A stretch of DNA of 64,000 nt from Agrobacterium larrymoorei (GTDB taxonomy: Bacteria > Pseudomonadota > Alphaproteobacteria > Rhizobiales > Rhizobiaceae), in the NCBI RefSeq assembly GCF_005145045.1, contig NZ_CP039694.1, positions 248,001 through 312,000 of the forward strand, written 5' to 3'. Shown here one piece after another: positions 34,633-56,126 of this stretch (the first letter of the stretch is position 1; each line of letters opens with the position of its first letter). The position numbers were made by a program, and so were the translations under genes. A model generated the notes under the pieces. It was not told the origin of the DNA and did not search any database. It saw only the letters and a list, made by a program, of their open reading frames with translations.

Positions 34633-35511
34633 TCAGATATCTGCAACCGCACTACTCGACGGGTGATTGCTTATGAACTCGTCAGATAGGCTGGCCCAAA
34701 GTCCCTGCACTAGTTTTTTCATCACAAGCGCGTCGTTCCAACGGTCTGAGATATCGTTGCCATCCGGGCCCGTTATGGCATAAGGCTTTGGCCCAAGCTC
34801 ACAGACGAAAGGCAACGTGGCATCGGCACCGGCGCGTTTACGCCAGCTTTGAAAACCATTACGCCACCAGCCAAGGAAAACATCGACCCATTGTTGATGC
34901 TGGGGAAACGATATCTCGACCTGTATCTGCTGCGGGCTCGATACGCGACCGTGATAGGCCCAGCAGTGATCCATAATTCGCTCGATCTGTACATGTATTT
35001 CATTTGATATCGGCCACGCAAACTCGCGCCCGACCATATAGTGCGACAAATCACCAAGGAGTTGAAGGTTTGGGAATTGGTCCAGAAGATCCAGTGTAAA
35101 AAGAAGATCGCTAGTCACCCGGTCGCGATGGGTCTCAAGCAAGACTGGAAATGTGATCTGCTCAGCCAAACGCTGCCATCCCTCGATGACAGAGACGCAA
35201 TCGCTTATTTTTCGCGGACGGATATCGGCGTGCACATCCAGATGGTCGACCCCGAATTCCGATGCAACTTCAAGAACTGGTTTGAGATCATCAATGGTTT
35301 GTACGAAGCACTGCCCCTCATAATATTTACATCCGTCCGGCAAAAGTTTCTTGATGCGGCGTACGCTATCCCGATCATGGCAATGAGCGCTAACGCCACC
35401 GAACCCGGCACCTGCGATTTTTGCGATATTTTCTTCCAGCAATAATTCGTATCCGTCAGTATGACGTCGCTCCATTGCCCATAGCGACTGCAACACAAGA
35501 AAGTTCTGCAT
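34633..35511 (-). CDS. Xylose isomerase-like TIM-barrel protein
   Basis: About 292 residues of the AP endonuclease 2/sugar isomerase-epimerase superfamily (PF01261). Recognisable parts are NIAKIAGAGFGGVSAHCHD, VDHLDVHADIRPRKISD, FPVLLETHRDRVTSDLLFTL with the metal-binding Glu-Thr-His, and LQLLGDLSHYMVGREFAWP with a metal-binding Asp and His. It would act on a sugar or sugar-like polyol in the cytoplasm. The start is ATG 35511; a GTG at 35520 is also possible. It is divergent from the lacI gene, with two AAGCGCTT palindromes between, so it belongs to the P450/nucleoside regulon. It could process the ribose or other sugar released from the substrate; that is inference. Confidence 0.8.
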   Translation of the reverse strand: MQNFLVLQSLWAMERRHTDGYELLLEENIAKIAGAGFGGVSAHCHDRDSVRRIKKLLPDGCKYYEGQCFVQTIDDLKPVLEVASEFGVDHLDVHADIRPRKISDCVSVIEGWQRLAEQITFPVLLETHRDRVTSDLLFTLDLLDQFPNLQLLGDLSHYMVGREFAWPISNEIHVQIERIMDHCWAYHGRVSSPQQIQVEISFPQHQQWVDVFLGWWRNGFQSWRKRAGADATLPFVCELGPKPYAITGPDGNDISDRWNDALVMKKLVQGLWASLSDEFISNHPSSSAVADI

Positions 35512-35569
35512 CGAAAACACCCCATCGGCTCATCTTAAGTTGACAGGAAAGCTGGATTGTTAGATTCAG

Positions 35570-35582
35570 TCAAGCGCTTAAC
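35570..35582. promoter_or_regulatory. LacI-type operator O1
   Basis: TCAAGCGCTTAAC, centred on AAGCGCTT (35572-35579). Nearly the same as the site at 35601-35614 in inverted orientation and as the perfect palindrome at 36728-36741. It lies 59 bases upstream of the isomerase start. Confidence 0.75.
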
Positions 35583-35600
35583 GAAGGTGAAAATAGTTTT

Positions 35601-35614
35601 GTTAAGCGCTTGAC
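35601..35614. promoter_or_regulatory. LacI-type operator O2
   Basis: GTTAAGCGCTTGAC with core AAGCGCTT at 35604-35611. The centre is 32 bases from O1, about three helical turns, so two repressor dimers could bind the same face. It lies 55 bases upstream of the lacI start. Confidence 0.75.
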
Positions 35615-35668
35615 TATTGCTAAATGAGGCGTAGGCTTCATCCAGTCAATGTCGGAAAGAGCGTTGTA

Positions 35669-36688
35669 ATGAGGAAGCCTCGAATCAAAGCGCTGGATGT
35701 AGCGAAAGCCGCCGAGGTTTCGACTGCGACGGTCTCGCTCGTAATCAACGGCAAAGCGGATAAACGTGTCCCTCTTGAAACCCGTCAACGGGTTTTGAAG
35801 GTGGCGTCCGAATTGGGATATACCGTTGATCGTCGGGCTCGAGGGCTTGCCACTGGAACGAGCCGACTTATAGGCTTTATCGTCCCCAACAGTGTTGGTA
35901 ACCCATTCTTTAGCGCTGTCCATATGGAGCTCATGCGAGAACTGGGAAGTAGTTATCAGGTATTGATTGTTGCAACTGATGTTGGTGAGGATATCGCCCG
36001 ACAAAACATAGAGCAACTACTCGCGATCGGTATCGATGCACTTGTCGGCATATCTGTCGATAGCGCTTACCTGAAGCCGATAGAAGCCAATATTCCAATG
36101 ATTTTGGTCGATTCTGATCGCTCCGGCCCCGGGATTGCAGCGCTGAATTTCGCTGTAGAAGACGGCGCACGAGAGTTAGCACGACATTTGGTTGATTTCG
36201 GGCATCGCAAATTCGCATATATCGATGCAAAAACCCAGTCTCGTACATTTCCCGCACGTCGCAATGCGTTTATGGCAGCACTCGCGGAAATGGGTGTGGA
36301 AAGTCCAGTCATTCTGGAAACCGAAATCGAGATGACAGACGCAGAAACGACTGTCGCAACCATTCTTCAAAAATGGAAGTCGGACGGGATCACAGCCATC
36401 GTGTGCGCAACCGACCTACAAGCCTACGGTGTCCTCACTGCATTGAAGGCACTTGCAATACAGGTGCCGGATGACATGTCGCTCGCAGGGTTTGATGACT
36501 TGCCGTTTTCCCGAGCGATGGACCCGCAGCTGACGTCCGTGCGACTTCCCGGCGATGCACTGGCAAGAGGCGCTGTCGCTGAATTGCGTGGGCTGTTAAA
36601 GCAGAAGTCTCCACGCATAGCCAGCATCGTTATCAATGTAGAGCTGCACCCGCGAGCCTCTACAGGCAAAGCTAAGACACTCGCCTGA
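35669..36688 (+). CDS. LacI-family transcriptional repressor
   Basis: A 339-residue LacI/GalR regulator. The N-terminal HTH is IKALDVAKAAEVSTATVSLV with hinge RRARGLATGTS, followed by a periplasmic-binding-protein-like effector domain (LIGFIVPNSVGNPFFSAVHM through DDMSLAGFDDLPFSRAMDPQ). The start at 35669 gives the correct HTH spacing; an ATG at 35624 would add 15 residues. It is divergent from the isomerase gene and 86 bases ahead of the ferredoxin gene. Three matching palindromes in both intergenic regions indicate that it controls itself, the isomerase and the P450/nucleoside operon. The inducer is unknown, probably a sugar or nucleoside. Confidence 0.9.
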   Translation: MRKPRIKALDVAKAAEVSTATVSLVINGKADKRVPLETRQRVLKVASELGYTVDRRARGLATGTSRLIGFIVPNSVGNPFFSAVHMELMRELGSSYQVLIVATDVGEDIARQNIEQLLAIGIDALVGISVDSAYLKPIEANIPMILVDSDRSGPGIAALNFAVEDGARELARHLVDFGHRKFAYIDAKTQSRTFPARRNAFMAALAEMGVESPVILETEIEMTDAETTVATILQKWKSDGITAIVCATDLQAYGVLTALKALAIQVPDDMSLAGFDDLPFSRAMDPQLTSVRLPGDALARGAVAELRGLLKQKSPRIASIVINVELHPRASTGKAKTLA

Positions 36689-36727
36689 AACGATACGACG
36701 GTGTAGGGCACACATCTCGCGCAGTTA

Positions 36728-36741
36728 GTTAAGCGCTTAAC
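36728..36741. promoter_or_regulatory. LacI-type operator O3 before the ferredoxin gene
   Basis: GTTAAGCGCTTAAC is a perfect 14-bp palindrome. It lies 33 bases upstream of the ferredoxin start and 39 bases after the lacI stop. Its identity with O1 and O2 links the downstream operon to the LacI regulator. Confidence 0.8.
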
Positions 36742-36774
36742 TTGAAAACGTTTCGCTTGAGTTCGGGGAAAACT

Positions 36775-36981
36775 ATGAAGAAGATGCACGTCAAGGTCAA
36801 TCTTGAGGCCTGCCAAGGACATGGGCTTTGCTACTTCGCAGCCGAGGCACTTTACGAAATCAGAGACAGTGACGGTCGGGCGATTGTTCTGTTGGACCCA
36901 GTGCCCGAGGACATGCACGATGCTGCCAGAAAATCTGCGGAAGTCTGTCCCGAGCGGGCAATCGAGATCATTGAAGAGTGA
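36775..36981 (+). CDS. P450-associated ferredoxin with C-x2-H-x2-C motif
   Basis: A 68-residue small iron-sulfur ferredoxin of the type that serves bacterial P450s. The cluster motif is C13-x2-H16-x2-C19 ... C58-P, so the second of the usual four cysteine positions is histidine. Three Cys ligands suggest a [3Fe-4S] cluster, or a [4Fe-4S] cluster with a non-Cys ligand. It should carry electrons from the reductase (38235) to the P450 (37033) in the same operon. Start at 36775 with a CGGGGAA ribosome site; the longer frame from 36742 includes DNA next to the operator. Confidence 0.88.
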   Translation: MKKMHVKVNLEACQGHGLCYFAAEALYEIRDSDGRAIVLLDPVPEDMHDAARKSAEVCPERAIEIIEE

Positions 36982-37032
36982 ATTTCCAGCCGTCGGACCG
37001 AGTCAGGGTCACTTTGTATAGGAGTTAGCGCT

Positions 37033-38235
37033 GTGAGCACAGTAGATTTTGACCACAACAGCAAAGACCATGTGGACAACGCATACGATACATACAAGCT
37101 TCACCGATCGAAGTGTCCCGTGGCCAAGACCGAAAGACACGGGGGCTACTGGGTTATTGCAGGATATGACGAGGTTTTTCAGGTTGCCAGAGATGACGAC
37201 ACGTTTTCGTCGGCTGGTGGAACAGTGGTACCCAACACAAATGTCGGCAGACTTTTGCCGATCATGGCAGACCCGCCTGAGCTTGAGCGTTACAGGACCC
37301 TGATCAATCCATTCCTTACGCCCAAGGCCATAAAGGAAATAGAACCGTTCATACGGCGTATCACTGACGACGCGATAGACTCCTTTATTGAACAAGGTTC
37401 TGTCGATATCGTTGCGGAGCTTGCAAGTCCCATTCCGGCAATGGGGACAATGCGCTTGCTTGGCCTTGATCCGTCTGAATGGTGCATGTTTGCCGAGCCC
37501 CTTCATGACGTCATGTACACGCGGCCTGGCACCCCTGAGAATGAAGATGGCCAGCGTCGGGTTCTCGCGTTTTCGCAAAAGATTGTCGATGAGATCGATG
37601 AAAGAATAAGAGCCCCGCGGGAGGACATGATCTCCCGACTTTTGGCCTCGGAATCCAACGGCATCAAGACTTCGCGCCAGGAAGTCATCGATCTGGTCAG
37701 GATGGTCATTTTCGGTGGCATGGACACTGTTGTCGCTGCATTGGGAAATATTTTCCTGCAACTGGATCGCCACCCCGATATTCGGCAGCGCCTCATCGCC
37801 GACAGGGCACTGTTACCAACTGCCATTGAAGAATTCCTCCGCTTCGAAGCGCCGATCCAAGGCTTCGGACGCAAAGTAATGCGTGACACTTGCGTCGGTG
37901 ATCAGTCCATCAAAGCAGGCGAAACTGTTTTCATGCTGTGGGCGAGCGCTAATCGGGATGAAAGCGTCTTTGGTGAGACTGCAGACCAGCTCGTGATTGA
38001 CAGAGTGCCAAACCGCCACATGACGTTTGGCATCGGGGGCCACCGTTGCCAGGGATCGACCATGGCGCGCACCGAGTTGCGGATCGTGCTGGATCGAGTT
38101 CTCGAAAGGCTTCCGGATTACAAAGTTGTTTGGGACAAGGTTGTGGGTCCTGATACGGTCGGCTCGTCCTATGGTCAACGTGCTGTGCCGATATTGTTCA
38201 CACCCGGCAGAAAGCTGAACACGGTGGCTGCGTGA
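37033..38235 (+). CDS. Cytochrome P450 monooxygenase (GTG start)
   Basis: A 400-residue soluble class I bacterial P450. The I-helix motif is GGMDT (residues 228-232, with Asp-Thr for oxygen activation), the ExxR motif is E267-x2-R270, and the heme-binding loop FGIGGHRCQG has the heme-ligand Cys339. The GTG start is preceded by GGAG 10 bases upstream. It would hydroxylate or dealkylate a small substrate using electrons from the adjacent ferredoxin and reductase. Co-location with a nucleoside transporter and nucleoside hydrolase-like gene suggests a nucleoside-like or base-bearing substrate. I cannot assign a CYP family. Confidence 0.93.
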   Translation: MSTVDFDHNSKDHVDNAYDTYKLHRSKCPVAKTERHGGYWVIAGYDEVFQVARDDDTFSSAGGTVVPNTNVGRLLPIMADPPELERYRTLINPFLTPKAIKEIEPFIRRITDDAIDSFIEQGSVDIVAELASPIPAMGTMRLLGLDPSEWCMFAEPLHDVMYTRPGTPENEDGQRRVLAFSQKIVDEIDERIRAPREDMISRLLASESNGIKTSRQEVIDLVRMVIFGGMDTVVAALGNIFLQLDRHPDIRQRLIADRALLPTAIEEFLRFEAPIQGFGRKVMRDTCVGDQSIKAGETVFMLWASANRDESVFGETADQLVIDRVPNRHMTFGIGGHRCQGSTMARTELRIVLDRVLERLPDYKVVWDKVVGPDTVGSSYGQRAVPILFTPGRKLNTVAA

Positions 38236-39455
38236 TGGTCATCTCCACGACACCACGACAGCCAGATCAAAAGCGCATCGCTATCGTTGGAGCATCCGTT
38301 GCTGGTGTTGCAGCGGCAGAGGCGCTCTCGAAAGGCGGGTTCCTGGGGACGGTTGACGTTTTTGATTCCGAAACGTCGCTTCCCTATGATCGCCCGCCCC
38401 TTTCGAAGCAGTTCGCCCTCGGCACCTGTAATGTGGAGAAGCTTCAGTTTTACGATATCGAAGGCTGGGACAGGCTTGGTGCGACCCTGCATCTTGGGTT
38501 AAAAGTTGCCGCGATCGAGGAAAAGGGTCGACGCTTGCGTTTGAGCGACGGTCGTTCGTTTGAGAATGATGGCCTGATCATTGCAACAGGTGCTGAGCCA
38601 ATCAATCTCAAAGTCTTGAAAGGTCGCGAAAACGTTATCTCGCTGAGAACACTCTGCGATGGTCAGCGTCTTGCCACAGCCCTCAAGAGCTCCCGGCGTC
38701 TTGCAATCGTCGGAAGCGGTTTTATCGGGCTCGAGGTTGCAGCTGTCGCGGCAAGTCTCGATATCGATGTGACGGTAATAGAGCGATCTCCGCTTCCAAT
38801 GGAAGCGAGATTGGGGAAAATCGTCGCCAAGCGAATTCTGGATCTGCATCAACGCCATAACATCAACTTCCTGCGTGGACGGACGGTTGCCTCTGCGGAG
38901 GGAGGTGTAAAGGTCGAAACGCTGGTTCTAGATGACGGCACGCGTTTGGATATCGATACCGTCCTCGTCGGCATCGGTGTGCGTCCGGCTCTGGCGTGGC
39001 TGGAAAATTCAGGCATCGCTCTGAGCGATGGAATTGTCTGCGACGACCATGGCCGTACGAACCTTTCGGCGGTCTATGCCGCAGGAGATGCTGCCTCCTG
39101 GCTTAACTCGCTTTTCAATGAGCAAATGCGGCTTGAACATTGGACGACTGCCAGAGAACAGGGACAGCACGTCGCACAATGTTTGATCCGCGAACTGGCC
39201 GGTGAAAGTTCCCACGAAATGGTGTTCGATCATGTCCCTTATGTATGGTCCGACCAATATGGCCTGAAAATTCAGACTGTTGGGCGATTTCTTCCCAATG
39301 ATGTATTTCGCATTGATCATGACGAGCCTGAGAACAACAGGTTCGCAGGCAGCTATTGGCGCAACGATAAAATTCGCGGTGCAATAGCGATAAACATGCC
39401 GAAACAGCTCATGTCCTACCGAAAGGAGATAATCTCTCAATACAAAGGCGTTTGA
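38235..39455 (+). CDS. NAD(P)H-dependent ferredoxin reductase
   Basis: A 406-residue FAD-dependent reductase of the putidaredoxin-reductase type. It has an FAD-binding RIAIVGASVAGVAAAEAL, SLPYDRPPLSKQ, a second Rossmann motif RLAIVGSGFIGLEVAA for NAD(P)H, the conserved VYAAGDAA near residue 280, and a C-terminal reductase domain (EHWTTAREQGQHVA, VWSDQYGLKIQTVG). The start is ATG 38235 overlapping the P450 stop, or GTG three bases earlier. It completes a three-component P450 system with the ferredoxin and P450. Confidence 0.92.
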   Translation: MVISTTPRQPDQKRIAIVGASVAGVAAAEALSKGGFLGTVDVFDSETSLPYDRPPLSKQFALGTCNVEKLQFYDIEGWDRLGATLHLGLKVAAIEEKGRRLRLSDGRSFENDGLIIATGAEPINLKVLKGRENVISLRTLCDGQRLATALKSSRRLAIVGSGFIGLEVAAVAASLDIDVTVIERSPLPMEARLGKIVAKRILDLHQRHNINFLRGRTVASAEGGVKVETLVLDDGTRLDIDTVLVGIGVRPALAWLENSGIALSDGIVCDDHGRTNLSAVYAAGDAASWLNSLFNEQMRLEHWTTAREQGQHVAQCLIRELAGESSHEMVFDHVPYVWSDQYGLKIQTVGRFLPNDVFRIDHDEPENNRFAGSYWRNDKIRGAIAINMPKQLMSYRKEIISQYKGV

Positions 39456-39552
39456 GCGCGCATGACGGCTGGGCTGCCGTGACACGAAGCAAGTGGAACG
39501 TCCGCCATCAACAATGAGTATCAAAAACAGGCGATCCAAAAGGGGAACAACA

Positions 39553-41133
39553 ATGTCCGAAGAGACAAAGCCTGCTCTTGAATGTCGCAAGGTTACCGTG
39601 AACTATGGACAGGTAACCGCGCTTGAAGACGTATGCGCCAGATTTGCGCAGGGGCAGATTCACGCGGTAGTAGGTCAGAATGGCGCTGGCAAAACAACAT
39701 TTGCGCGCGTCGCAGCAGGTCTTGTTCGCCCCACATCTGGATCAGTCATGGTCATGGAGCGAGAAGTCCGAACTGGTCATGTCAACGACAGCCGCGCTGC
39801 CGGTGTGGAACTCGTGCACCAGAGCTTTGCGCTTCCGCCCTCATTCACGGTGGTCGAAGCCATGGAGTTCAGCGTTGCCGGAACTGGAGGCTTCTACAGC
39901 CGGAAATGTCTGAAAAACAAATGGCATGATCATCTCCGAGATCTCGATATCACCGTCGATCTCGGCGAGCGTTTACGCGCTCTGCCCGTTGAAACCCAGC
40001 AAGGCATAGAGATTGCTCGCGCTCTGGTCACAGATGCCAAAGTCCTCATATTGGACGAACCCACGGCAGTACTGTCTCCTGCGGGTATCGATGTTTTGTT
40101 CAATCGCGTGAGACGTCTCAAGGAACGTGGCGTGACGGTCATTATGATCCTTCACAAAATCCGGGAAGTCCTTGCCATTGCAGATACGGTTACGGTCTTG
40201 CGTGGCGGTCGCAAGATCGAAGGCCCCCTCTCGGTTAAAGAGCTGTCAAGCGAGCGGTTGGCGAAACTCATCATCGGGGATTCAGTCGTAAGGGCGCCGA
40301 ATGCACTTGGTCAGAGTGTTCCTGTCCAGGTCACGCAATCCGACATCGCCGGAAGCGGCAAAATTTCGGAGCCGAGCAAACCAAAGGCGCTCGAACTGCG
40401 CGGTGTTTCTACGAATCCGGACAGCGAAGGGATGCCTCTCGACGATGTCGATCTGGAGATACGAGCGGGCGAAATAGTCGGCATCGCAGGCGTTGAGGGC
40501 AACGGGCAAAGAACCTTGGTTCGCACCATAGCGGCACTTTCCGATATGCACTCCGGACACCTCTGTCTTGGGGGGCAAGATGTCACGGATCAATCGCTTT
40601 CAGGCCGCCGAAACAGCGGTTTACGCATCATTCCTTTTGAACGAAACGTAGAAGGCCTGAGCCTGACGAGTTCGCTATGGGAAAACTGGAGCGCGCGAGC
40701 CCTGCTACAAAATGGTCTTTTGCGGTTTATCGCACCAAGCGCAATCCGAAGAGACTGCGACCAATCGCTAAAAAGCTGGGGTGTGCGTTTTCACAGTCCC
40801 GGTCAGCGAGCGGAATCTCTTTCCGGCGGCAACGCGCAAAAGGTAATCTTCGCCCGCGAAATCGATCCGGATGCGAAGCTCATCATTGCTGCGCAACCCA
40901 CGCGCGGGCTCGACATCGGCGCGACGGCTTTCGTCTGGCAGACACTACGAGAAGCCCGTGATCGAGGTGCTGCAGTGCTGCTGATTTCGTCAGACTTGGA
41001 TGAACTTTTCGACATTTCCGACCGAGTTCTCGTGATGCTGTCTGGCCGTATCAACGGTGAGTTTTCCGCGCCATACGACATGCTGTCTGTTGGCAGGGCC
41101 ATGACTGACGCAGCGACAGAGGTAACAGCATGA
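39553..41133 (+). CDS. Nucleoside-type ABC transporter ATPase with two ATPase domains
   Basis: A 526-residue double-ATPase subunit like YufO/NupA of BMP-type nucleoside importers. First domain: Walker A GQNGAGKTTFARVAAG, Walker B VLILDEPTAVLSP. Second domain: degenerate Walker A GVEGNGQRTLVRT, signature LSGGNAQKVIFARE, then QPTRGLDIGA. The second Walker A lacks the standard Lys-Thr pair, as is usual in this subfamily and in RbsA-type proteins. The start at 39553 has an AGGGGAA site. It is translationally coupled to the next permease (ATGA at 41130). Confidence 0.9.
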   Translation: MSEETKPALECRKVTVNYGQVTALEDVCARFAQGQIHAVVGQNGAGKTTFARVAAGLVRPTSGSVMVMEREVRTGHVNDSRAAGVELVHQSFALPPSFTVVEAMEFSVAGTGGFYSRKCLKNKWHDHLRDLDITVDLGERLRALPVETQQGIEIARALVTDAKVLILDEPTAVLSPAGIDVLFNRVRRLKERGVTVIMILHKIREVLAIADTVTVLRGGRKIEGPLSVKELSSERLAKLIIGDSVVRAPNALGQSVPVQVTQSDIAGSGKISEPSKPKALELRGVSTNPDSEGMPLDDVDLEIRAGEIVGIAGVEGNGQRTLVRTIAALSDMHSGHLCLGGQDVTDQSLSGRRNSGLRIIPFERNVEGLSLTSSLWENWSARALLQNGLLRFIAPSAIRRDCDQSLKSWGVRFHSPGQRAESLSGGNAQKVIFAREIDPDAKLIIAAQPTRGLDIGATAFVWQTLREARDRGAAVLLISSDLDELFDISDRVLVMLSGRINGEFSAPYDMLSVGRAMTDAATEVTA

Positions 41134-42167
41134 GAGACAGTCTCGCTACAGTCGGACGCAGTTTTATCTTCGTCATTTTGGCACTGGCGCTTTGCGCGGT
41201 GGTTTTCCAGGCGTGTCGTTATAACGCCCCACTCATGATTTGGTCCGTTATCGAAGGCGCGTTCTTTAGAAATGGTGCGATTGTCCAAAGCCTGAGATGG
41301 GCGCTACCGTTGTTCATCACTGCGGCTGGCGTCGCCATTTCGTTTCGAGCAGGCTTTTTCAACATAGGTGCGCAGGGTCAATTTTATGTTGGTGCGATTG
41401 CAGCGGCAACCGCTGCCCATTTTCTGTCGGGCGGTCCGGCATTTGTGGTCATACCCCTGATCTTCCTGGCAGGAATTTGCGGAGGTGCGATTTGGGCTCT
41501 ATGGCCGGGGCTTTTAAGATTAAGTTCCGGCACTGACGAAGTCATCACGACCCTCATGGGCAACTTTCTGGCCGGACTTTTGCTGATTTACGTTACCTCC
41601 GGCCCACTCAAGGATCCCTCGGGTTCGGGGCAGCAAGCATCCAGCAAACCTCTTGATCCGGCCTATCGTATGTCGGACTCGCTTGGTCTTTCTCCAACCA
41701 TTATTGCCATCGCGCTGATTGTTGGCATCGCGACGTGGCTGCTGGTCAATCGTACTGCTTTTGGCGTGCTTGCGGGCCTCGCCGGACGTAACGTTGTCAT
41801 GGTAAAATGGCAGGGAGCGCGGATCTGGAAACTTGGCCTGTCGAGCTTTCTAATTTCTGGTGCATTGGCAGGACTTGCCGGAACGATAGAATTCATGGGG
41901 CCGAACGGCCGTATCGTATCTGGCTTCCTGCCCGCTCATGGTTTCACTGCAATCCTCATCGCTCTTGTCGCCAACCTGTCGATTGTCGGAACCGCAGTCA
42001 CGGCCATATTCTTCGGTGGCCTATCGGCAGCTGCACTTTACCTGCCCATCATCGCGGGCCTCCCGGCCTCTGCCATCGATATCATAAATGCTGCAATCGC
42101 CCTGTTCATTACGGCCAAATCGAATTTTATCGACAGGGTGTTCGGTGTTGGGAGTCAGCCCAAATGA
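41130..42167 (+). CDS. Nucleoside-type ABC transporter permease 1
   Basis: A 345-residue permease of the BPD_transp_2 family (YufP/NupB-like) with about ten membrane segments. It has the family's early AGVAISFRAGFFNIGAQGQF motif and the later FLPAHGFTAILIALVANLS. It overlaps the ATPase stop and the next permease start by four bases each, so all three are coupled. Location: inner membrane. Confidence 0.9.
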   Translation: MRDSLATVGRSFIFVILALALCAVVFQACRYNAPLMIWSVIEGAFFRNGAIVQSLRWALPLFITAAGVAISFRAGFFNIGAQGQFYVGAIAAATAAHFLSGGPAFVVIPLIFLAGICGGAIWALWPGLLRLSSGTDEVITTLMGNFLAGLLLIYVTSGPLKDPSGSGQQASSKPLDPAYRMSDSLGLSPTIIAIALIVGIATWLLVNRTAFGVLAGLAGRNVVMVKWQGARIWKLGLSSFLISGALAGLAGTIEFMGPNGRIVSGFLPAHGFTAILIALVANLSIVGTAVTAIFFGGLSAAALYLPIIAGLPASAIDIINAAIALFITAKSNFIDRVFGVGSQPK

Positions 42168-43057
42168 ATGAAATCATTATTGCCATACTCCGTTCTGGAA
42201 CTCCGCTGATTTACGTGACACTGGCTGGTGTATTGGCACAGCGTGCCGGTGTCTGGAATCTGGGCCTCGAAGGGTTGATGATCATAGGCGCATGCGCCAC
42301 GATCGTGGGCATCATGCTGACCCATTCCGTTGCAGCGGCGATCCTTATCGCCATTACGCTCTGCGTGCTCGCCTCGGTGCTTCTGTGGTTTGTCATCGAT
42401 AAGCTGAAGGCAAACCCCATCATCGCAGGCCTTGGAATGACAGGTCTCGGGCTTGGCGGAACGGCACTTGCGGTTCAATCGATTTTTGGCAGTCAGGCTA
42501 CGGTAACGGCGCCATTCGGCCTGCCGAAACTCGGACCGGCATTCGGCGCATATGGCGTCCTTTCCATCGCTGTCGCTGCCATGCCTTTCGTGGTCTTCGG
42601 CATTTGGCTTCTATTGCGCCGGTCTCGCTTCGGCCTAAAGCTTGCTGCGTCTGGAGAACACCCTTTCGCTGCCCGTAGCGTCGGCATAAATCCTTCACGA
42701 ATGCGCTTGATAGCCTTGATTATAGGTGGTGCACTCTGTGCGCTCGGTGGAGCAGAGCTTGCAGCTGGTAGCTTGCAGTTCTTCGCGCAGGGAATGACGG
42801 CAGGCCGTGGCTTCATGGCCTTCGCAGCCGTGATTTTTGGAGCTGCACATCCGGTGGGCGCAGCCCTTGCGGCCGTGTTTTTTGCGGTCGCCGGTGCAAT
42901 CGGCGTGCGCGCTCAATTGTTGTTCGGAGGAAAGATGCCGAACGAGATCCTCCAAAGCTTACCCTATATCGCGACGATCTTTGGCGTGTGGTTATCAGGG
43001 CGACTGCGTGGAGGTGCCAAAGGCGTGAACGGTTTCAACGAACTTAAAGATCAGTGA
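42164..43057 (+). CDS. Nucleoside-type ABC transporter permease 2
   Basis: A 297-residue second BPD_transp_2 permease (YufQ/NupC-like). Typical motifs are LAGVLAQRAGVWNLGLEGLM near the N-terminus and GMTAGRGFMAFAAVIFGAAH near residue 210. It starts at 42164 in an ATGA overlap; longer open frame upstream is antifunctional extension inside permease 1. It pairs with permease 1 to form the channel. The gene is followed after 13 bases by the nucleoside hydrolase-like gene. Confidence 0.9.
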   Translation: MNEIIIAILRSGTPLIYVTLAGVLAQRAGVWNLGLEGLMIIGACATIVGIMLTHSVAAAILIAITLCVLASVLLWFVIDKLKANPIIAGLGMTGLGLGGTALAVQSIFGSQATVTAPFGLPKLGPAFGAYGVLSIAVAAMPFVVFGIWLLLRRSRFGLKLAASGEHPFAARSVGINPSRMRLIALIIGGALCALGGAELAAGSLQFFAQGMTAGRGFMAFAAVIFGAAHPVGAALAAVFFAVAGAIGVRAQLLFGGKMPNEILQSLPYIATIFGVWLSGRLRGGAKGVNGFNELKDQ

Positions 43058-43070
43058 GAGGATAACTGGA

Positions 43071-44009
43071 ATGGCACGCAAACTGATCATCCTGACCGAT
43101 CCTGGCCAGGATCAGGCGGCACCGATCCTCATGTTTCTGGGTCAGCCGCAGTCCTTCGACGTTCTCGGTCTCGTCGCAACTGCGGGCAACATCAACCTCG
43201 CCAATACGATCAACAACTGCCTGAAGCTGCTGGAACTGGCTGGGCGTCCTGACATTCCTGTGTTTGCAGGATGTGTCCATCCCCTCGTCCGCCCGCTCGT
43301 CATGGCCGAGCATGTCCATGGCCCGACAGGTCTTGACGGTCCAGATCTACCGTCACCGTCGATCCTGGCTCAAGACCAACATGGCGTGGACTTCATCATC
43401 GACACTGTTCGCGCGCATCCCGGCGAGATCACCATTTGTTCGCTGTCACCCACGACCAATCTGGCCATGGCTTTGCGCGAGGAACCGGACATCGCCGACA
43501 AAATTCAAGAGATCGTCGCCATGCTGGGCGCTTATTTCGAGGTCGGCAATATAACGCCCACGGCGGAGTTCAACTGCTACGTTGACCCGGAGGCTGCCGA
43601 TATAGTGCTTAAATCCGGTGTGAAAACAACACTCCTTCCGCTGGATGTCACCCATCGAATGCTGTCGAACCGGGAGCGGCTCGATGCCATGCGAGCAGTC
43701 GGCAGTCGTTGCGGCGTGGCTCTTGCCGAAATGCTTGAATTCTCCGCGGCTTCTGACCTCAAGAAATACGGTTGGGAAGGCGCACCTCTCCATGGCTTAT
43801 GCGTGTCAGCCTTCATGGCCGCGCCGCAGCTTTTTTCTGGGCGAGATGTCATTGTTTCCGTCGAACTGGCAGGCACGCTGACAACGGGAATGACAGTCGT
43901 CGATTGGTGGCAGATCACCAACAGACCGAAGAATGCCTTTTACGTAAGAGACTGTGTTGCATCCGATAGCTACCGACTTCTCAATCAGTCCTTGGCAAAT
44001 CTACCATGA
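43071..44009 (+). CDS. Nucleoside hydrolase-like protein with altered calcium site
   Basis: A 312-residue member of the inosine-uridine nucleoside N-ribohydrolase family (PF01156), which splits nucleosides into ribose and base. Using the well-known protozoan enzyme numbering, which this protein matches without offset, Asp10, Asp14, Asn160, Glu166, Asn168 and His241 are kept. The usual DPGxDD motif, however, is DPGQDQ (Asp15 is Gln) and the HD pair is H241-G242 (Asp242 is Gly). Both lost Asp residues bind the essential calcium. So ribose contacts look retained while the metal site is changed. It may use another mechanism, another substrate, or be a binding protein. A GAGAGGATAAC ribosome site precedes the start. 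Confidence 0.85.
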   Translation: MARKLIILTDPGQDQAAPILMFLGQPQSFDVLGLVATAGNINLANTINNCLKLLELAGRPDIPVFAGCVHPLVRPLVMAEHVHGPTGLDGPDLPSPSILAQDQHGVDFIIDTVRAHPGEITICSLSPTTNLAMALREEPDIADKIQEIVAMLGAYFEVGNITPTAEFNCYVDPEAADIVLKSGVKTTLLPLDVTHRMLSNRERLDAMRAVGSRCGVALAEMLEFSAASDLKKYGWEGAPLHGLCVSAFMAAPQLFSGRDVIVSVELAGTLTTGMTVVDWWQITNRPKNAFYVRDCVASDSYRLLNQSLANLP

Positions 44010-44109
44010 CCCAAAAAACGCGTTGGACGCGGGAGTAAATAGGACGGCCTTTGAATAAGTTTCACGTTTAATTGCTGAAATAGGCATGACATTAAAAAAG
44101 GGAACGAAA

Positions 44110-45165
44110 ATGAAAAATAATACTGGGATGATGACAACAATAAACCGTCGCACCTTTCTCCAAGGCAGTGCTGGTGCCGTTGCCATGGGCGTGGCCCTAA
44201 GCGCAATTCCTGATTTTGCAGGCGCCGCAGAAGGGCTCGTTGCGCTGGTGCATACACAGGCCGCGGGCGATAATGGTCCTGTCGATCAGATGATTGCAAA
44301 ATTGAAACAACTCTCGCAGGAAAAGGGTTTCGAGCATCGCGCCATTTACGCGCAGGACCCTGCAACCTATGAGGCGATTTTCCGAACACTCGGTGACGCT
44401 GGCGCCGCAATTGTTATTTCCACCTTTAACGGCGTTTCCGAACCTTTCAAAGCGCTTGCACCATCATATCCACAAACCAAATGGATCCAGCTTTTCGGCG
44501 ATGCCTTCAATCCGCCTATCGCCAATGTGGTCACGGTATCCTACGATTATCATCTGGGCTGTTATCTCTCCGGCGTCTTTGCCGCCCACATCACAACATC
44601 AGGTAAAATTGGCTACGTCGGGGGCGTGTCGTTGCCGCAACTAAATGCGGATTTCAATGCATTGAAAGCCGGCGCACTATCCGTACGCCCCGAAGCCAAT
44701 GTAACCAGCGCCTTTGCCGGATCGTTTCAAGACCCGGCTAAGGGTCAGGAAATTGCGACGCAGATGTACAACAGCGGCATCGACTACATTCAGACCGACG
44801 CTGCTGCAACTGACAGCGGCATAATCGCTGCGGCCAATGAAAAAGACGGGCGTTTGGTCAGCTCTATCTCTCCTTCCCAATATGCACTTGGACCGAAATC
44901 CGTCGTCTCAATCGTCAGCCTCGATTTCGGCGTCTCGCTCTATAACGAAATCTCGAAGGCGTTGACGTCTGGGTGGAAGGGTGGCACGCATGAGAAAACT
45001 GGACTGGGCAATGGCGTAATCGACTTTATCGCCTCACCGGTATTTGCTGAACAAAGCGCCGGCGAACTTGCGCAAAAAGCCAAAGCGGCGATGCTCGAAG
45101 TGGAAAAGGTTCGTGCGGGAATCCTCGACGGTTCGATCGTCGTTCCTTTCAACACGACGATCTAG
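44110..45165 (+). CDS. BMP-family substrate-binding protein, Tat signal
   Basis: A 351-residue periplasmic receptor of the BMP/PnrA family (PF02608), which binds purine or pyrimidine nucleosides for the Yuf/Nup-type importer. The N-terminus has a twin-arginine signal (NRRTFLQGSAGAVAMG) rather than a lipobox. Family parts include IVISTFNGVSEPFKALAPSY, YLSGVFAAHITTSGKIGYVG, and NSGIDYIQTDAAATDSGII. The start at 44110 follows an AAAGGGAACG site. Placing the receptor last, after the hydrolase, is unusual but keeps it in the operon; 100 bases separate the two. Confidence 0.88.
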   Translation: MKNNTGMMTTINRRTFLQGSAGAVAMGVALSAIPDFAGAAEGLVALVHTQAAGDNGPVDQMIAKLKQLSQEKGFEHRAIYAQDPATYEAIFRTLGDAGAAIVISTFNGVSEPFKALAPSYPQTKWIQLFGDAFNPPIANVVTVSYDYHLGCYLSGVFAAHITTSGKIGYVGGVSLPQLNADFNALKAGALSVRPEANVTSAFAGSFQDPAKGQEIATQMYNSGIDYIQTDAAATDSGIIAAANEKDGRLVSSISPSQYALGPKSVVSIVSLDFGVSLYNEISKALTSGWKGGTHEKTGLGNGVIDFIASPVFAEQSAGELAQKAKAAMLEVEKVRAGILDGSIVVPFNTTI

Positions 45166-45328
45166 CGTATCGGTTAAAGAGGGAGAGCATTTGCTTTCGA
45201 GCCGGATCTGAAGACCATGGTAAAGAGACATGACAGTTTTTGAATAATATGGTAACGATACCTCGCCACCAAACGGCACAATTTGCCTAACGCGGATTTC
45301 AAGAAACATCCGCTTTCGGAGAAACAGT

Positions 45329-45439
45329 ATGGAAATTGGTGTTTTCATTCCAATCGGAAACAATGGCTGGCTGCCGAATTGTTTCACTGTCGTTCGTCTC
45401 GCTTGCTTCCGTCATGGCATGGCCCCTCTCAACCGATGA
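45329..45439 (+). pseudogene. RutA-like pyrimidine monooxygenase, 5' fragment
   Basis: The first 15 codons, MEIGVFIPIGNNGWL, match the start of RutA-type FMN-dependent pyrimidine monooxygenases, which open the uracil ring. The reading frame then goes on in unrelated sequence to a stop at 45439. A CGGAGAAAC ribosome site precedes the ATG, as for a real start. The break is near 45373, about 135 bases before the IS3 element's left end. It follows the BMP receptor by 163 bases on the same strand, so an intact monooxygenase gene was probably once part of, or next to, the LacI-controlled operon. Confidence 0.65.
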
Positions 45440-49943: not shown

Positions 49944-51353
49944 TCAGTAATTGAAAGGTTCAATTCGAGTAGGCTGCAAAAGGCCCAAGTCTGAGACCAA
50001 AGTAACGTACCTGTTTATCGCTAGGACCAAGTCTCTCGACTCACTATCAATATTGTTTGTCGTCAAACCCTGCCAGATCTCCGCCATTTGCCAAGATAGA
50101 ACCCGCAGGCGGGTCAAGCCAGCTTCATCGTTCAAGATCGTCTTTAAGTCTTCTGCTTGCACGTAGCCTACACCAGGAGCGACTTTTGTCCCATACCATC
50201 GGTAGCCTTCCGGCAGCACCCCAACGAGATTGGTCACAAGCCCGTGAGTGATGGAATCGAACATCTGTCGGACGGCCTGTTTGGCCCCCTCAACCCGTGA
50301 TGAATGATCTGTGTCTGCTACTGCGTGCGGCAGCAGAAGCATACGGCCCGGGTACGTTTTTGCCAGTGCGATATATGGTGAAAGTGGACCGCTGACGCTA
50401 CAATCTTTTTCATTTACGAAGATGTCGGCATCAACGGCAAAAAAGCTGATCGTCCCGTTCTCAAGAGCTTCAGCAAGGGAGTCGATATCGACAATTTGTC
50501 CGCGATCATAATTTACGACCACTGCACCGGGGCTGAGCTTCCCGAAAAAGCTTCGATCCATCAACTGCTCATTGGCAAAGTGCTCACTGCCGTTTTTCTT
50601 GGTTCCAAGGCCAACGTGAGCGCTGACAAAATGAGCATCCGTTGCAGCGTCAGCGAGCGTTTCACAATAGCGGTACCCTTGAGCCTCTATCCAATCGCGG
50701 TGAATCTTCCTTGCGTAGATCGACACATGCATCCCGAATGCCTTTCCCAGCTTCGCGACTTCACGGCCAATGTTTCCGTATCCCAGAACGAGGAGGTTTT
50801 TCCCTTCGATCTTGTCGGTCGGGAAATTCTTAAGGTCCCGCCCAGTGTCCATCTGACCCGCGATCACCGCCTCATGGAGCTCATCCAGCGGCAGGTCAGG
50901 GGATGCTCGTAGAATAGCCTTGAAGACCATATGCGCTGTCGCCCGGCTGTTAAATCCGGGTGTGTTCATCAGTGGAGCCGTTCCACCACTGCCGTCAGAT
51001 CCTCCCCAAGACTGCGACTGCATGTTGCCCGTTCCGGCACCAATGCGTACGCCGCCTTTCTCGAACCTACACGCTGGAGGAATAATTGTTGCTGCAGCAA
51101 TGACGGCATCGTATCGACCGCCGCCTGCCGCGAGAATGAGATCTTCGGCTTCCGACAGATCGGGCTGGTAGTAAAAATGCAGCCGATCCAACGGAGTGTC
51201 CGCATCCATACTTGCTGGACCAATATGGAAGACCCCTCCGTGTTCCTCAATAAATTCTACGACCTCGCTGAAGTCGTGGCATCCATCAGGATCTGAACGA
51301 AGTCCAATTCGGTCGCATATGAGGATACGTGCGCCAATTTTTCCGCGTTCCAT
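49944..51353 (-). CDS. 2-hydroxyacid dehydrogenase family protein with extended C-terminus
   Basis: About 469 residues of the D-isomer-specific 2-hydroxyacid dehydrogenase superfamily (PF02826). Present are the NAD-binding GYGNIGREVAKLGKAFG, the VVVNYDRGQIVDIDSLAEAL segment, and a catalytic-type His in LLLPHAVADTDHSSRV. It is about 130 residues longer than usual, with an additional C-terminal part (KTILNDEAGLTRLRVLSWQM onward). Two ATGs are possible; the one at 51353 has AAGGAG nine bases upstream, while 51371 lies directly against the previous stop. Last gene of the sigma-54 operon. It probably reduces or oxidises a 2-oxo/2-hydroxy acid formed by the preceding oxidases. Confidence 0.8.
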   Translation of the reverse strand: MERGKIGARILICDRIGLRSDPDGCHDFSEVVEFIEEHGGVFHIGPASMDADTPLDRLHFYYQPDLSEAEDLILAAGGGRYDAVIAAATIIPPACRFEKGGVRIGAGTGNMQSQSWGGSDGSGGTAPLMNTPGFNSRATAHMVFKAILRASPDLPLDELHEAVIAGQMDTGRDLKNFPTDKIEGKNLLVLGYGNIGREVAKLGKAFGMHVSIYARKIHRDWIEAQGYRYCETLADAATDAHFVSAHVGLGTKKNGSEHFANEQLMDRSFFGKLSPGAVVVNYDRGQIVDIDSLAEALENGTISFFAVDADIFVNEKDCSVSGPLSPYIALAKTYPGRMLLLPHAVADTDHSSRVEGAKQAVRQMFDSITHGLVTNLVGVLPEGYRWYGTKVAPGVGYVQAEDLKTILNDEAGLTRLRVLSWQMAEIWQGLTTNNIDSESRDLVLAINRYVTLVSDLGLLQPTRIEPFNY

Positions 51354-51371
51354 TTTTCCAACTCCTTGCAT

Positions 51372-52631
51372 TTAATTGAAGCGACCAAGACTATAAGGTT
51401 TGGGATCGATTGCTGTCGGGCGATTTAGGACGAGGTCTCTTATGAGAGATGAAGTCTCGCTTGCACCCACCATGCCGGTATGCCCGTGGCCAACAGCCAC
51501 AAAAATGTCCTTATGCTTTAAAGCCGCTCCAATAGCCGCGACGCTATCGGGAAGCGACGGGCGGAAACCCATCCACTGCTTGCATGCGTCAGCCTGGAGT
51601 GTTGGAAAGATTGCACGTGCCTTCGCATAGAGCGCGTTGCAGCGCGTTTCATTTGGCGCTGAAACCAAACCCGCGATCTCCACGCCGCCCGCTAGGCGAA
51701 GCCCATGTTCCATCGGCGTAATCGCCATTCCACTATCGCGCAACAGTATCGGCAACTTGTTCGAAAGGCTGGGTCCTTCCAGCATCACATGATAGCCGCG
51801 CTCCGTTTCTAGCGGCAGCTTCACGCCGAGCGGAGCCAGTAGTTCTTTGGCCCAAGACCCTGTTGCAATGACCACCTTACAGGCCCGACGATTTTGGCTA
51901 TTGGTGAACAAGTCTACATATCCCTCTCCCGGGATAAGCTTCAGCACCTTTTCTGCCGCCGATTTCCCGCCGGCCTCATGGAAGAGACGCAGCAATGTGG
52001 CGGTAAGCCTGCCCGGATTTACGGTCCAGCCGTTTCGCGGGAAATATATTCCGCGCTTTGCTCTTGGCCCGATTGCGGGGAATATCTCCTTCAGCTGTTC
52101 AGCACTCACATCTTGCCCGCCTAGCGAGTGCCTGTCCGCGAGATAGCGTATAACCCGTTCAGTAGAGGTTTCAGTCTCGCCTTCAAAGACGCTGACACTT
52201 CCCTCGGTACGAATGAGGTCTTCGAAAAGCGAGTTACCGAGGAGTTCTCGATACCGCGACATCGTATTGTGATGCAGATGGTAAAGTGCGTCTGAAGATC
52301 TGCGCACGACGCTCATGCGGCTCGCGGCGAGCCACTTTACCAGCCACGGCAAGGCGACGGGCAGGTACTTAGGGCTTACTGCAAGAGGACCGTTCCGATC
52401 TAGCATCCATCCCGGCACCTTCCGCCACATTCCTGGCAAAGCGATTGGGCTGTTCGTGCATGCACTGAGCAAGCCCGCATTTCCATAAGAACTCTGTTTG
52501 CCTGCTGACATAGGGTCGACAATTGTAACGTTGCGACCCGCGCGCTGCAGAGACAGCGCGCAACAAAGACCGACGATTCCGGCGCCAATGACGATCACAT
52601 CCGCTTCGTCGACATTCAAGGGAATGTTCAT
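51372..52631 (-). CDS. FAD-dependent D-amino-acid dehydrogenase-like oxidoreductase
   Basis: A 419-residue DAO-fold flavoprotein (PF01266), closest in pattern to DadA. It begins with the FAD Rossmann motif DVIVIGAGIVGLCCALSLQR and has the SSYGNAGLLSA segment found in DadA, GWTVNPGRLTATLLRLFHEA, and a C-terminal FVAVGHGHTGMVGASETSSL. It would dehydrogenate an amino acid or amine to an imine, passing electrons to a membrane acceptor. Fifth in substrate order after GMC and DAO enzymes in the same leftward operon; 72 bases separate it from the GMC gene. Confidence 0.85.
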   Translation of the reverse strand: MNIPLNVDEADVIVIGAGIVGLCCALSLQRAGRNVTIVDPMSAGKQSSYGNAGLLSACTNSPIALPGMWRKVPGWMLDRNGPLAVSPKYLPVALPWLVKWLAASRMSVVRRSSDALYHLHHNTMSRYRELLGNSLFEDLIRTEGSVSVFEGETETSTERVIRYLADRHSLGGQDVSAEQLKEIFPAIGPRAKRGIYFPRNGWTVNPGRLTATLLRLFHEAGGKSAAEKVLKLIPGEGYVDLFTNSQNRRACKVVIATGSWAKELLAPLGVKLPLETERGYHVMLEGPSLSNKLPILLRDSGMAITPMEHGLRLAGGVEIAGLVSAPNETRCNALYAKARAIFPTLQADACKQWMGFRPSLPDSVAAIGAALKHKDIFVAVGHGHTGMVGASETSSLIRDLVLNRPTAIDPKPYSLGRFN

Positions 52632-52703
52632 GATATTACTTTCCTGCTCGTTCAGGAGCGGTGAGTTGGATTTACAGATCGAACACTGCAGCGAACTTAT
52701 TTG

Positions 52704-54290
52704 TCAGACACGATTTCCCTTGATGAAGGAGGACGCCCGCTCGCCGATCATGATGCTGGGTGCATTCAAGTTGCCAGATGTGACGTAGGGCATGATAGAT
52801 GAATCAGCGACGCGTAGACCGTCAATACCTCTAACGCGAAGCTGCGGGTCAACCACAGCCATTTCATCGGTGCCCATCTTGCAAGCTCCGCTCAAATGGT
52901 ATGCACCTTGCGTGTGCTTGCGCACGAACGCGTCGAAATCAGATCTTGTTTTCAGCTGGGCGCTCGGAAGGTGCGATGCCCGAACAAACTTCGCAATGGA
53001 AGGTTGGGACATGATGTCCTGCCCGATACGCACACCGTCGATCATGCGATCTACATCGTATTGCTCGGCGAGATAGTTCGGATCGACGATAGGTGCGACT
53101 GAGGGGTCGCTTGAACGGAGCCTGATCTCACCTCTTGAATGCGGCCGGCAGGCATAGACGTTTACCGTGCAACCGTTTCCGCTCGGTGTGCTGTCCACCC
53201 CCTCCTCGACACCAGCGCCTGCAAGAAAGTGATATTGGAGGTCGGGTACCGGATCGTTCGGGTCGCCATGCCAGAAGGCGCCGCCTTCGCAAACGTTTGA
53301 TGAAATCGGTCCATTGCCGAATAAGCCGTACTGTAAGGCGGCGGCGGCTTGCCAACGGAATTTCTTGTATTTGTCATAGCTCGAAGCTTCCTTGAGATCA
53401 TATACAAGGAAGCAATCCGTATGATCCTGCAAGTTCTTGCCGACGCCCGCCAGGTCGTGCGCGACCGTTACGCCGACGGACTTGAGTTCATCTGCGGGGC
53501 CGATGCCGGACTGAAGAAGCAGCTTCGGAGAGCCCAGCGCGCCTGAGCACACGATGACTTCCTTATCTGCGCGTAAGGTCTTGACCGCGCCGTTTTCGAT
53601 ATATTCGATGCCATAAGCGCGGCCAGACTGGATCAGTATTCTGGTGATCTGCTTTCCAGTGTGAACTTTCAGGTTGCGGCGATTGCGTGCCGGATTAAGA
53701 TAGGCGACCACTGCGCTGCATCGGCGGCCATCTCGCGTCGTCAACTGGTACAAGCCGGCTCCTGCCTGATTGCCGGAATTGAAATCTGGGTTGTACGGAA
53801 TGCCCGCCTCCTGGCATGCCTTAACCCAGGCCTTTGAGATCGGAAGCGTCTGACGCTGGTCGGACACGGTAAGGGGCCCATTACTTCCGTGCTGATCATT
53901 CGAGAAGCGCTCATTGCCTTCTGCCTTCTTGAAGAACGGCAAGACATCCTGGTATCTCCAGCCTTCGGCGCCTGACGCTGCCCAACGATCGTAGTCTTCG
54001 GGGCAGCCACGAATATAGATCATGGCGTTGACAGAGCTGCCGCCGCCGAGGACACGAGCTTGCCCCGTATCGGTTTCCAAGTTGTTCTGGTGCTTCAGCG
54101 TCTCAAGCTTGAACCGTTGAAGAAGACTACTCTTACACGTCTTGTAATATGTAACAGGCAGATGGATCCATGGGCTCTTATCGCTTGGGCCAGCTTCGAA
54201 AAGAGCGACACTGACGGCTTCATCCTCACTCAGACGTCCGGCGATGGTGCATCCGGCAGACCCGCCGCCGACGATAATATAATCTGGCAT
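52704..54290 (-). CDS. GMC-family oxidoreductase (choline/alcohol dehydrogenase-like)
   Basis: A 528-residue glucose-methanol-choline family flavoprotein. It has the N-terminal FAD motif YIIVGGGSAGCTIAGRLSED, the ARVLGGGSSVNAMIYIRG signature, IVCSGALGSPKLLLQSGIGP and the C-terminal active-site region GAYHLSGACKMG with the conserved His. It would oxidise an alcohol to an aldehyde, which the operon's aldehyde dehydrogenase could convert to an acid. A GAGGGAAAC ribosome site precedes the start; 11 bases follow the stop of the upstream DAO gene. Confidence 0.9.
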   Translation of the reverse strand: MPDYIIVGGGSAGCTIAGRLSEDEAVSVALFEAGPSDKSPWIHLPVTYYKTCKSSLLQRFKLETLKHQNNLETDTGQARVLGGGSSVNAMIYIRGCPEDYDRWAASGAEGWRYQDVLPFFKKAEGNERFSNDQHGSNGPLTVSDQRQTLPISKAWVKACQEAGIPYNPDFNSGNQAGAGLYQLTTRDGRRCSAVVAYLNPARNRRNLKVHTGKQITRILIQSGRAYGIEYIENGAVKTLRADKEVIVCSGALGSPKLLLQSGIGPADELKSVGVTVAHDLAGVGKNLQDHTDCFLVYDLKEASSYDKYKKFRWQAAAALQYGLFGNGPISSNVCEGGAFWHGDPNDPVPDLQYHFLAGAGVEEGVDSTPSGNGCTVNVYACRPHSRGEIRLRSSDPSVAPIVDPNYLAEQYDVDRMIDGVRIGQDIMSQPSIAKFVRASHLPSAQLKTRSDFDAFVRKHTQGAYHLSGACKMGTDEMAVVDPQLRVRGIDGLRVADSSIMPYVTSGNLNAPSIMIGERASSFIKGNRV

Positions 54291-54301
54291 GTTTCCCTCA
54301 G

Positions 54302-55759: not shown

Positions 55760-56115
55760 CAGACCACTGCTGTGGCCATCATTTCCACGAGATTGCCGCC
55801 AGCCGCCAGCCTGGACTCGACTGTCGCCCGCGCTGGCTGATGATCTTTGTTGACCCATGTGTCCCAGACACTGTTCATCGCATCGAAGTCGTCGATGTTG
55901 TTCAGCCAGATATTGACGCGGATGAGCCGCTCCTTGCTCGAGCCCGCTTTTTCTAGATACTCCTCGATCTGCTTAAGGATGTCTGCGGTCTGTACCTTGA
56001 CGTCAAGCTCCTTGTTGCGGGACGTCAGACCCGACAAATAGACGCCGCCGTTCACGACGACGACCTTCGAGAGACGACCGATGGGGTCAATTCTTGTTAT
56101 TTCAGATGCGCTCAT
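55759..56115 (-). CDS. RidA-family enamine/imine deaminase
   Basis: A 118-residue Rid-superfamily protein (YjgF/YER057c/UK114), with VYLSGLTSRNKELDVKVQTA, DFDAMNSVWDTWVNKDHQPA and the near-invariant Arg in PARATVESRLAAGG. RidA proteins hydrolyse reactive 2-imino or enamine products. Placed between aldehyde dehydrogenase and two amine-oxidising flavoproteins, it fits removal of imines made by them. It belongs to one of the non-archetypal Rid groups by its shorter SGL region; subgroup not assigned. Confidence 0.87.
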   Translation of the reverse strand: MSASEITRIDPIGRLSKVVVVNGGVYLSGLTSRNKELDVKVQTADILKQIEEYLEKAGSSKERLIRVNIWLNNIDDFDAMNSVWDTWVNKDHQPARATVESRLAAGGNLVEMMATAVV

Positions 56116-56126
56116 AACAGTTCTAC

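Follow-up and report, generated by a model that had tools for sequence, protein, structure and literature searches.

Little is known of how modified nucleosides are broken down. Among the described systems closest to the subject of this work, MocDEF O-demethylates rhizopine. In one report, mocDEF is given as required, and a title that speaks of a "ferredoxin oxygenase complex" is cited (PMC10107442). According to another report, a P450 from marine bacteria demethylates 6-O-methyl-galactose, and this sugar methyl ether is removed as formaldehyde (PMC10033563). The PhyH dioxygenase FJS converts 2′-O-methyl nucleosides to nucleoside and formaldehyde in a 2025 study, which terms the catabolic pathways of 2′-O-methylated nucleosides largely unexplored (PMC12709175). 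In two papers, the published enzymes for 2′-O-methylnucleosides are hydrolases and FJS with its relatives, and no P450 is among these (PMC12709175, PMC6278475); the word "cytochrome" does not occur in the main text of the former. Here, we analyzed a 64,000-nucleotide stretch of an Agrobacterium larrymoorei genome (the window), which carries a cluster of P450, importer and nucleoside-hydrolase-family genes. We tentatively propose, with a confidence somewhat short of probable, that this cluster is a LacI-controlled catabolic operon in which the P450 oxidatively dealkylates an imported modified nucleoside, most likely at a ribose O-methyl group, with 2′-O-methyl as the first guess.

Gene organization of the cluster

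The window corresponds to C4:248001-312000 of a four-contig genome of 5.26 Mb. The earlier note had read a complete class I P450 system, a BMP importer and a hydrolase-family gene in one rightward run, and Pfam matches bore this out (36775-45165, forward strand). The run begins with genes for a small single-cluster iron-sulfur ferredoxin (36775..36981; Fer4_15, 46.8 bits), a class I cytochrome P450 (37033..38235; p450, 86.2 bits) and a ferredoxin reductase (38232..39455; Pyr_redox_2 and Reductase_C), and their adjacency is that of a class I (three-component) system. These are followed by genes for a BMP-type importer ATPase (39493..41133; ABC_tran in two stretches), importer permease 1 (41130..42167; BPD_transp_2), importer permease 2 (42164..43057; BPD_transp_2), the nucleoside-hydrolase-family protein of a Rhizobiales subfamily (43071..44009; IU_nuc_hydro, 292.4 bits) and a BMP/PnrA-type binding protein (44140..45165, open frame from 44086, start as annotated in plasmid pTiAF3.44; Bmp, 131 bits). 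By Pfam, the binding protein, double ATPase and two permeases together make up a BMP/PnrA-type importer. Overlaps of 1-4 bp are present at P450/reductase, ATPase/permease 1 and permease 1/permease 2, and the ATPase frame begins 37 bp past the reductase. For the P450 we used the start at 37033, from which H8 is invariant across 30 aligned relatives; the pTiAF3.44 annotation begins at 37120.

The gene for a LacI-family regulator (35669..36688, forward strand, open frame from 35624, start per the pTiAF3.44 annotation; LacI and Peripla_BP_3) lies just 5′ of the run in the same direction. The gene for a TIM-barrel protein resembling sugar isomerases and epimerases (34633..35520, reverse strand) is divergent from it. 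The Pfam match of this protein is weak (AP_endonuc_2, 20.6 bits, under the cut-off of 31.1), and it is annotated in pTiAF3.44 as a xylose isomerase. Three exact copies of GTYAAGCGCTTRAC are present in the window, at 35569, 35601 and 36728, as compared with none in 100 shuffles. They are the only copies in the 5.26 Mb genome and are sited at two control regions: operator 1 (GTCAAGCGCTTAAC, 35569..35582) and operator 2 (GTTAAGCGCTTGAC, 35601..35614) in one, and operator 3 (GTTAAGCGCTTAAC, 36728..36741) between LacI and the ferredoxin. In Rhizobium sp. AQ_MP (locus L029), the same three 14-mers are found between the same genes, and the first two are also spaced 32 bp apart. The earlier observation of a TIM-barrel gene divergent from LacI at shared operators holds. 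The simplest reading would be a LacI regulon consisting of exactly the P450/importer cluster.

The cluster is identical to pTiAF3.44, an A. larrymoorei plasmid, with 0 mismatches over 10,968 bases; this plasmid is 403 kb long and typed as conjugative. In addition, contig C4 carries an ipt-family (cytokinin) gene at G000:C4:193529-194200 (306.8 bits). Because of this identity and the ipt-family gene, the replicon that carries the cluster is a Ti plasmid.

The P450 belongs to a clade linked with nucleoside genes

In a 30-row alignment of relatives, C339, E267/R270 and D231-T232 of the P450 are invariant; we take these to be the Cys-ligand loop, the ExxR motif and the acid-threonine pair. The model of the P450 had a predicted local distance difference test (pLDDT) score of 91.5. 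A fold search returned general P450s only, and the nearest folds are those of P450cin (30-31% identity). Within the family (247 genomes), the best match to the P450 outside its own genome is 32% identical (E 2.8e-51), and none exceeds 34% among the matches listed. At E 1e-65 it was found in 2 of 397 genomes of the order and 3 of 385 of the class, its own genome being counted in both. Of 1232 matching plasmid records, one is at least 99% identical and 1231 are below 60%.

We then scanned one genome per species with a P450 profile; the best 80 of 189 confirmed stretches gave 78 loci, and genes in GC-rich loci were called by codon usage. The closest locus is L029, where the P450 is 82% identical and the gene order is that of the window, but the hydrolase is absent. 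The TIM barrel, LacI, ferredoxin, P450, reductase and importer genes of AQ_MP are 66-91% identical to those of the window. In Bauldia litoralis (L028; P450 61% identical), the order is GMC oxidoreductase, NIPSNAP, binding protein, P450, ferredoxin, second binding protein, ATPase, two permeases, VOC, thymidine phosphorylase and a canonical hydrolase. A canonical hydrolase gene also lies directly upstream of a Chloroflexi P450 (L037; 47%). In a Proteobacteria metagenome-assembled genome (MAG; L030, 49%), a uridine-phosphorylase-family gene adjoins the P450 on the other strand, and in an Acidimicrobiia locus (L038, 48%) BMP importer genes are about 7 kb away. A Gammaproteobacteria MAG (L035, 45%) has xanthine/uracil-permease-family, 5′-nucleotidase-like, HAD, PhyH dioxygenase and adenosine-deaminase-family genes (L035:3995-16195). 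This PhyH protein was considered as a relative of FJS and set aside, the resemblance being too weak (best PDB match SnoK, 66 bits; PHYHD1, 39.7 bits). No importer or hydrolase match was found at the plasmid P450 loci of Mycobacterium (L026, 40%) and Cupriavidus (L027, 37%).

All 78 loci were tested with four profiles, for the BMP binding protein, hydrolase, thymidine phosphorylase and uridine phosphorylase. The binding-protein and hydrolase profiles include copies from L028, L037 and L038, the thymidine phosphorylase profile was built from L028 and L135, and that of uridine phosphorylase from L030 alone; without L030, four loci with tested genes remain. At least one of the four genes is present at five loci (L028, L029, L030, L037 and L038), in each of which the P450 is at least 47% identical. 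When the loci were divided at 42% P450 identity, a cut set after looking, tested genes were present at 5 of 15 loci at or above the cut and at 0 of 63 below it (Fisher p 1.4e-4). In a P450 tree of 75 rows, from which six rows with stops had been dropped, the six nucleoside-context rows, the window included, fall inside an 11-row clade (support 100/99); they do not form a clade of their own within it. The co-conservation of P450, importer and hydrolase, for which the earlier note had proposed a search, thus holds in part: a P450 clade is linked with nucleoside uptake or cleavage genes at six loci. The set as a whole is not conserved across the 78 loci, its order being kept in AQ_MP only and there without the hydrolase.

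Oxygenase genes accompany the TIM-barrel family

Sequence comparison at E 1 gave no solved structure related to the TIM-barrel protein, whose model, built from two sequences, had a pLDDT of 44. The protein matches 96 plasmid records, and of 24 non-identical matches listed, 10 loci were examined (L141-L144 and L153-L158; relatives 57-63% identical). An oxygenase gene with ferredoxin and/or reductase genes was found beside the TIM-barrel relative in 10 of 10 loci; the reductase was unmatched in L154. The oxygenase is of MocD type in eight, an FA_desaturase in L156 and a P450 in L158. One MocE ferredoxin was tested and is above the NCBIfam cut-off. A gene for S-(hydroxymethyl)glutathione dehydrogenase (formaldehyde dehydrogenase) is present at four of the ten loci, and the two tested exceed NCBIfam cut-offs. 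Because the oxygenase type varies while the TIM barrel and ferredoxin partner stay, these oxygenases are likely to have similar roles. The formaldehyde disposal genes suggest that this role would be demethylation, and the TIM-barrel family may mark unrecognized demethylase operons.

These loci resemble operons of the MocDEF type, that of rhizopine catabolism, and share with the window a ferredoxin, a reductase, often a nearby LacI gene and the TIM barrel. In contrast to the window, they have sugar-type binding proteins and, in eight cases, a MocD-type oxygenase, with a desaturase or P450 in the others. In L025, the locus that contains the complete cluster, neither MocD nor MocE was matched at E 1e-12, so that the cluster lacks these marks of a MocDEF-type operon.

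The importer is a general module and the hydrolase is divergent

The binding protein has PDB relatives of at most 78.7 bits, among which AtzT is the second best. At E 1e-40 it was found in 17 of 199 genomes of the window's family, its own included, and importer loci were examined in 14 of the 16 others. Importer parts in these 14 loci are 53-85% identical to those of the window, and the same divergent hydrolase subfamily is found where a hydrolase is present (10 loci). GMC oxidoreductase, NIPSNAP and uracil-DNA-glycosylase (UDG)-like genes are each present in 13, and a P450 in none. Unlike the window, these Sinorhizobium/Ensifer-type BMP operons have no match to the TIM barrel, ferredoxin, P450 or reductase at E 1e-10; one distant LacI (26%) lies in L126, outside the operon. 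The same gene set is annotated on S. meliloti and E. canadensis plasmids. The importer thus represents a module of wider occurrence in Rhizobiales, to which the P450 is a rare addition. No publication on this type of operon was found in our literature search.

In loci L124, L140 and L145, the Rhizobiales operon comprises a RutR-like regulator, a UDG-like protein, GMC oxidoreductase, NIPSNAP, BMP importer, VOC, divergent hydrolase and amidohydrolase. In L124, the one locus so tested, the TetR regulator resembles RutR with 169.7 bits, under the equivalog cut-off, and the UDG-like protein is under Pfam and NCBIfam cut-offs; the best solved relatives of the amidohydrolase are MTA/SAH deaminase and atrazine chlorohydrolase. 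A UDG-like protein inside a catabolic operon is odd.

The protein that the earlier note called a nucleoside hydrolase is a family member by score, and its best solved relative is E. coli RihA (about 228 bits), with which, as with RihB, it shares the fold family. However, its score of 272.7 bits falls short of the 433 bits set for the RihA equivalog and, as compared with E. coli RihA, it has L8, Q15 and G242 where Asp is usual: LTDPGQDQ replaces DxDPGxDD and HG replaces HD. D10, D14, N40, N160, E166, N168 and H241 are retained. We take the DxDPGxDD motif and the HD pair to be the calcium ligands of IUNH enzymes, and D10, D15 and D242 to be ligands of the catalytic calcium, of which two of three are lost here. 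The protein therefore lacks the signature of a calcium-dependent IUNH, and the assignment stands only as to family, within a divergent subfamily. Because two presumed ligands are lost, hydrolysis by this protein is doubtful, as judged from its residues; its catalysis may be independent of calcium, or its target may be a different bond. The copies from Bauldia and Chloroflexi are canonical. Among the 120 closest relatives, the N-terminal pattern is matched in 116, each of which has Q at position 15, and HG or HA is found in 120 of 120. This Rhizobiales subfamily without D8, D15 and D242 is strongly conserved, and the loss of two acidic positions in a subfamily so conserved is a separate puzzle.

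A proposed pathway and its alternatives

The importer and cleavage genes suggest a nucleoside substrate, and the link of the TIM barrel to oxygenases suggests dealkylation, perhaps of a sugar-like ether. The two signals together point to an O-methyl nucleoside, of which 2′-O-methyl is a common natural form. We therefore infer that the P450 substrate is the importer cargo, that the reaction is a dealkylation and that the position is 2′-O-methyl; 2′-O-methyl pyrimidine nucleosides are our leading guess, and the reaction is probably a demethylation. In this pathway, the BMP-type importer would take up the modified nucleoside and electrons would pass from NAD(P)H through reductase and ferredoxin to the P450. 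The P450 would hydroxylate a small alkyl group, which would leave as formaldehyde, and the freed nucleoside would be cleaved, its base and sugar entering ordinary metabolism. The overall reaction would be that of FJS/PHYHD1, although these are 2-oxoglutarate dioxygenases and not P450s. The P450 of 6-O-methyl-galactose would share the chemistry but has a different substrate. The earlier view, in which the P450 has an imported modified nucleoside as its substrate, thus gains comparative support from the clade context and the oxygenase company of the TIM barrel; its expected conservation of the whole set is weakened, and a RutA step is not supported.

Several observations weigh against our proposal. 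The nearest solved P450 folds have terpene or sterol substrates. The nearest relative, AQ_MP, lacks a hydrolase gene at this locus, and the best one in its genome is 47% identical and on another contig. In Bauldia, the TIM barrel, LacI and reductase are unmatched at the locus. At 10 of the 15 close P450 loci, L032 and L035 included, none of the four tested genes was found, some of these contigs being short. The importer and this hydrolase subfamily are also found independently of the P450, which was matched in none of the 14 Rhizobiaceae importer loci; in 13 of these, a choline-dehydrogenase-like GMC oxidoreductase and NIPSNAP take its place, so that importer specificity need not match that of the P450. 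The cluster hydrolase is non-canonical, without two presumed calcium-binding acidic residues, and by Pfam there is no formaldehyde gene among the cluster's ten genes.

The P450 might instead dealkylate a nitrogen of a purine- or triazine-like base, such as an N-methylated base or nucleoside, a cytokinin-like compound or an s-triazine, rather than a ribose ether. AtzT has guanine (Kd about 110 nM) and 2-hydroxyatrazine as ligands (PMC6834077), the amidohydrolase of L124 has the solved relatives given above, a cyanuric acid amidohydrolase above cut-off lies about 3 kb from the clade P450 of an Acidimicrobiia MAG (L032:6981-8081; P450 49%), and the plasmid carries the ipt-family gene. However, RihA as the best solved hydrolase relative, the thymidine/uridine phosphorylase-family genes beside clade members and the RutR-like regulator of L124 are pyrimidine signals. 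Moreover, in a hand mapping to the residues named there, with an inferred numbering offset, two Asn of the AtzT guanine site are Asp and Ala in the cluster protein (PMC6834077). We regard N-dealkylation as unlikely. The same pyrimidine context, with its phosphorylase-family genes, would suit a route to uracil by hydroxylation of a carbon-bound methyl group, such as that of 5-methyluridine or thymidine. Fungal thymine 7-hydroxylase carries out a comparable methyl hydroxylation toward uracil. This reaction would leave the link of the TIM barrel to MocD-type systems and formaldehyde dehydrogenase unexplained, and we give it little credence.

It is also conceivable, though quite unlikely, that the TIM barrel, LacI, ferredoxin, P450 and reductase form a demethylase half acting on an O-methyl sugar or cyclitol, the importer and hydrolase being an unrelated downstream nucleoside module. 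The TIM-barrel relatives belong to operons that resemble MocDEF, several of which encode sugar-type binding proteins, and in other loci the importer stands as a module of its own. In contrast, the importer follows close behind the reductase, an order kept in AQ_MP, and Bauldia joins the P450 to this importer and two cleavage genes without a TIM-barrel match at the locus.

If our proposal of nucleoside dealkylation is true, the P450 route would be a new enzyme activity, would give a likely function to an uncharacterized P450 clade and would add to a Ti plasmid a nutritional trait other than a classical opine. Importer-coupled catabolic P450 operons are a known kind, so that the novelty here would possibly lie in the activity. 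No description of an operon with a P450 acting on modified nucleosides was found among titles and abstract openings, in a search with most subscription journals outside its coverage. A wider and more speculative view, on the unlikely side, is that the P450 clade (Proteobacteria, Chloroflexi and Acidimicrobiia) would be a second, heme-based and import-coupled route, besides the PhyH dioxygenases, that erases 2′-O-methyl from free nucleosides. The Ti-plasmid host would then feed on methylated nucleosides released in the gall as plant RNA is turned over, and the calcium-free hydrolase offshoot would be a partner.

Other features of the region

The earlier note had seen a RutA-like start after the cluster and had pointed to the opening of pyrimidine rings by RutA. 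This start copies exactly the first 46 bp of the resident rutA, from its ATG (45329..45374, forward strand), and is not a gene. The frame departs from RutA after 46 bp and stops after 36 codons, with transposase genes next, and the full rutA lies on another contig (G000:C2:1034497-1035561). Thus, a RutA step in the cluster pathway was rejected. The copy sits between the binding-protein gene and an insertion sequence region. Farther along the window (49944-57632), a leftward run contains genes for an NAD(P)-dependent oxidoreductase, three FAD-dependent or FAD-binding oxidoreductases, RidA and an aldehyde dehydrogenase, and is perhaps concerned with opine-like amine oxidation.

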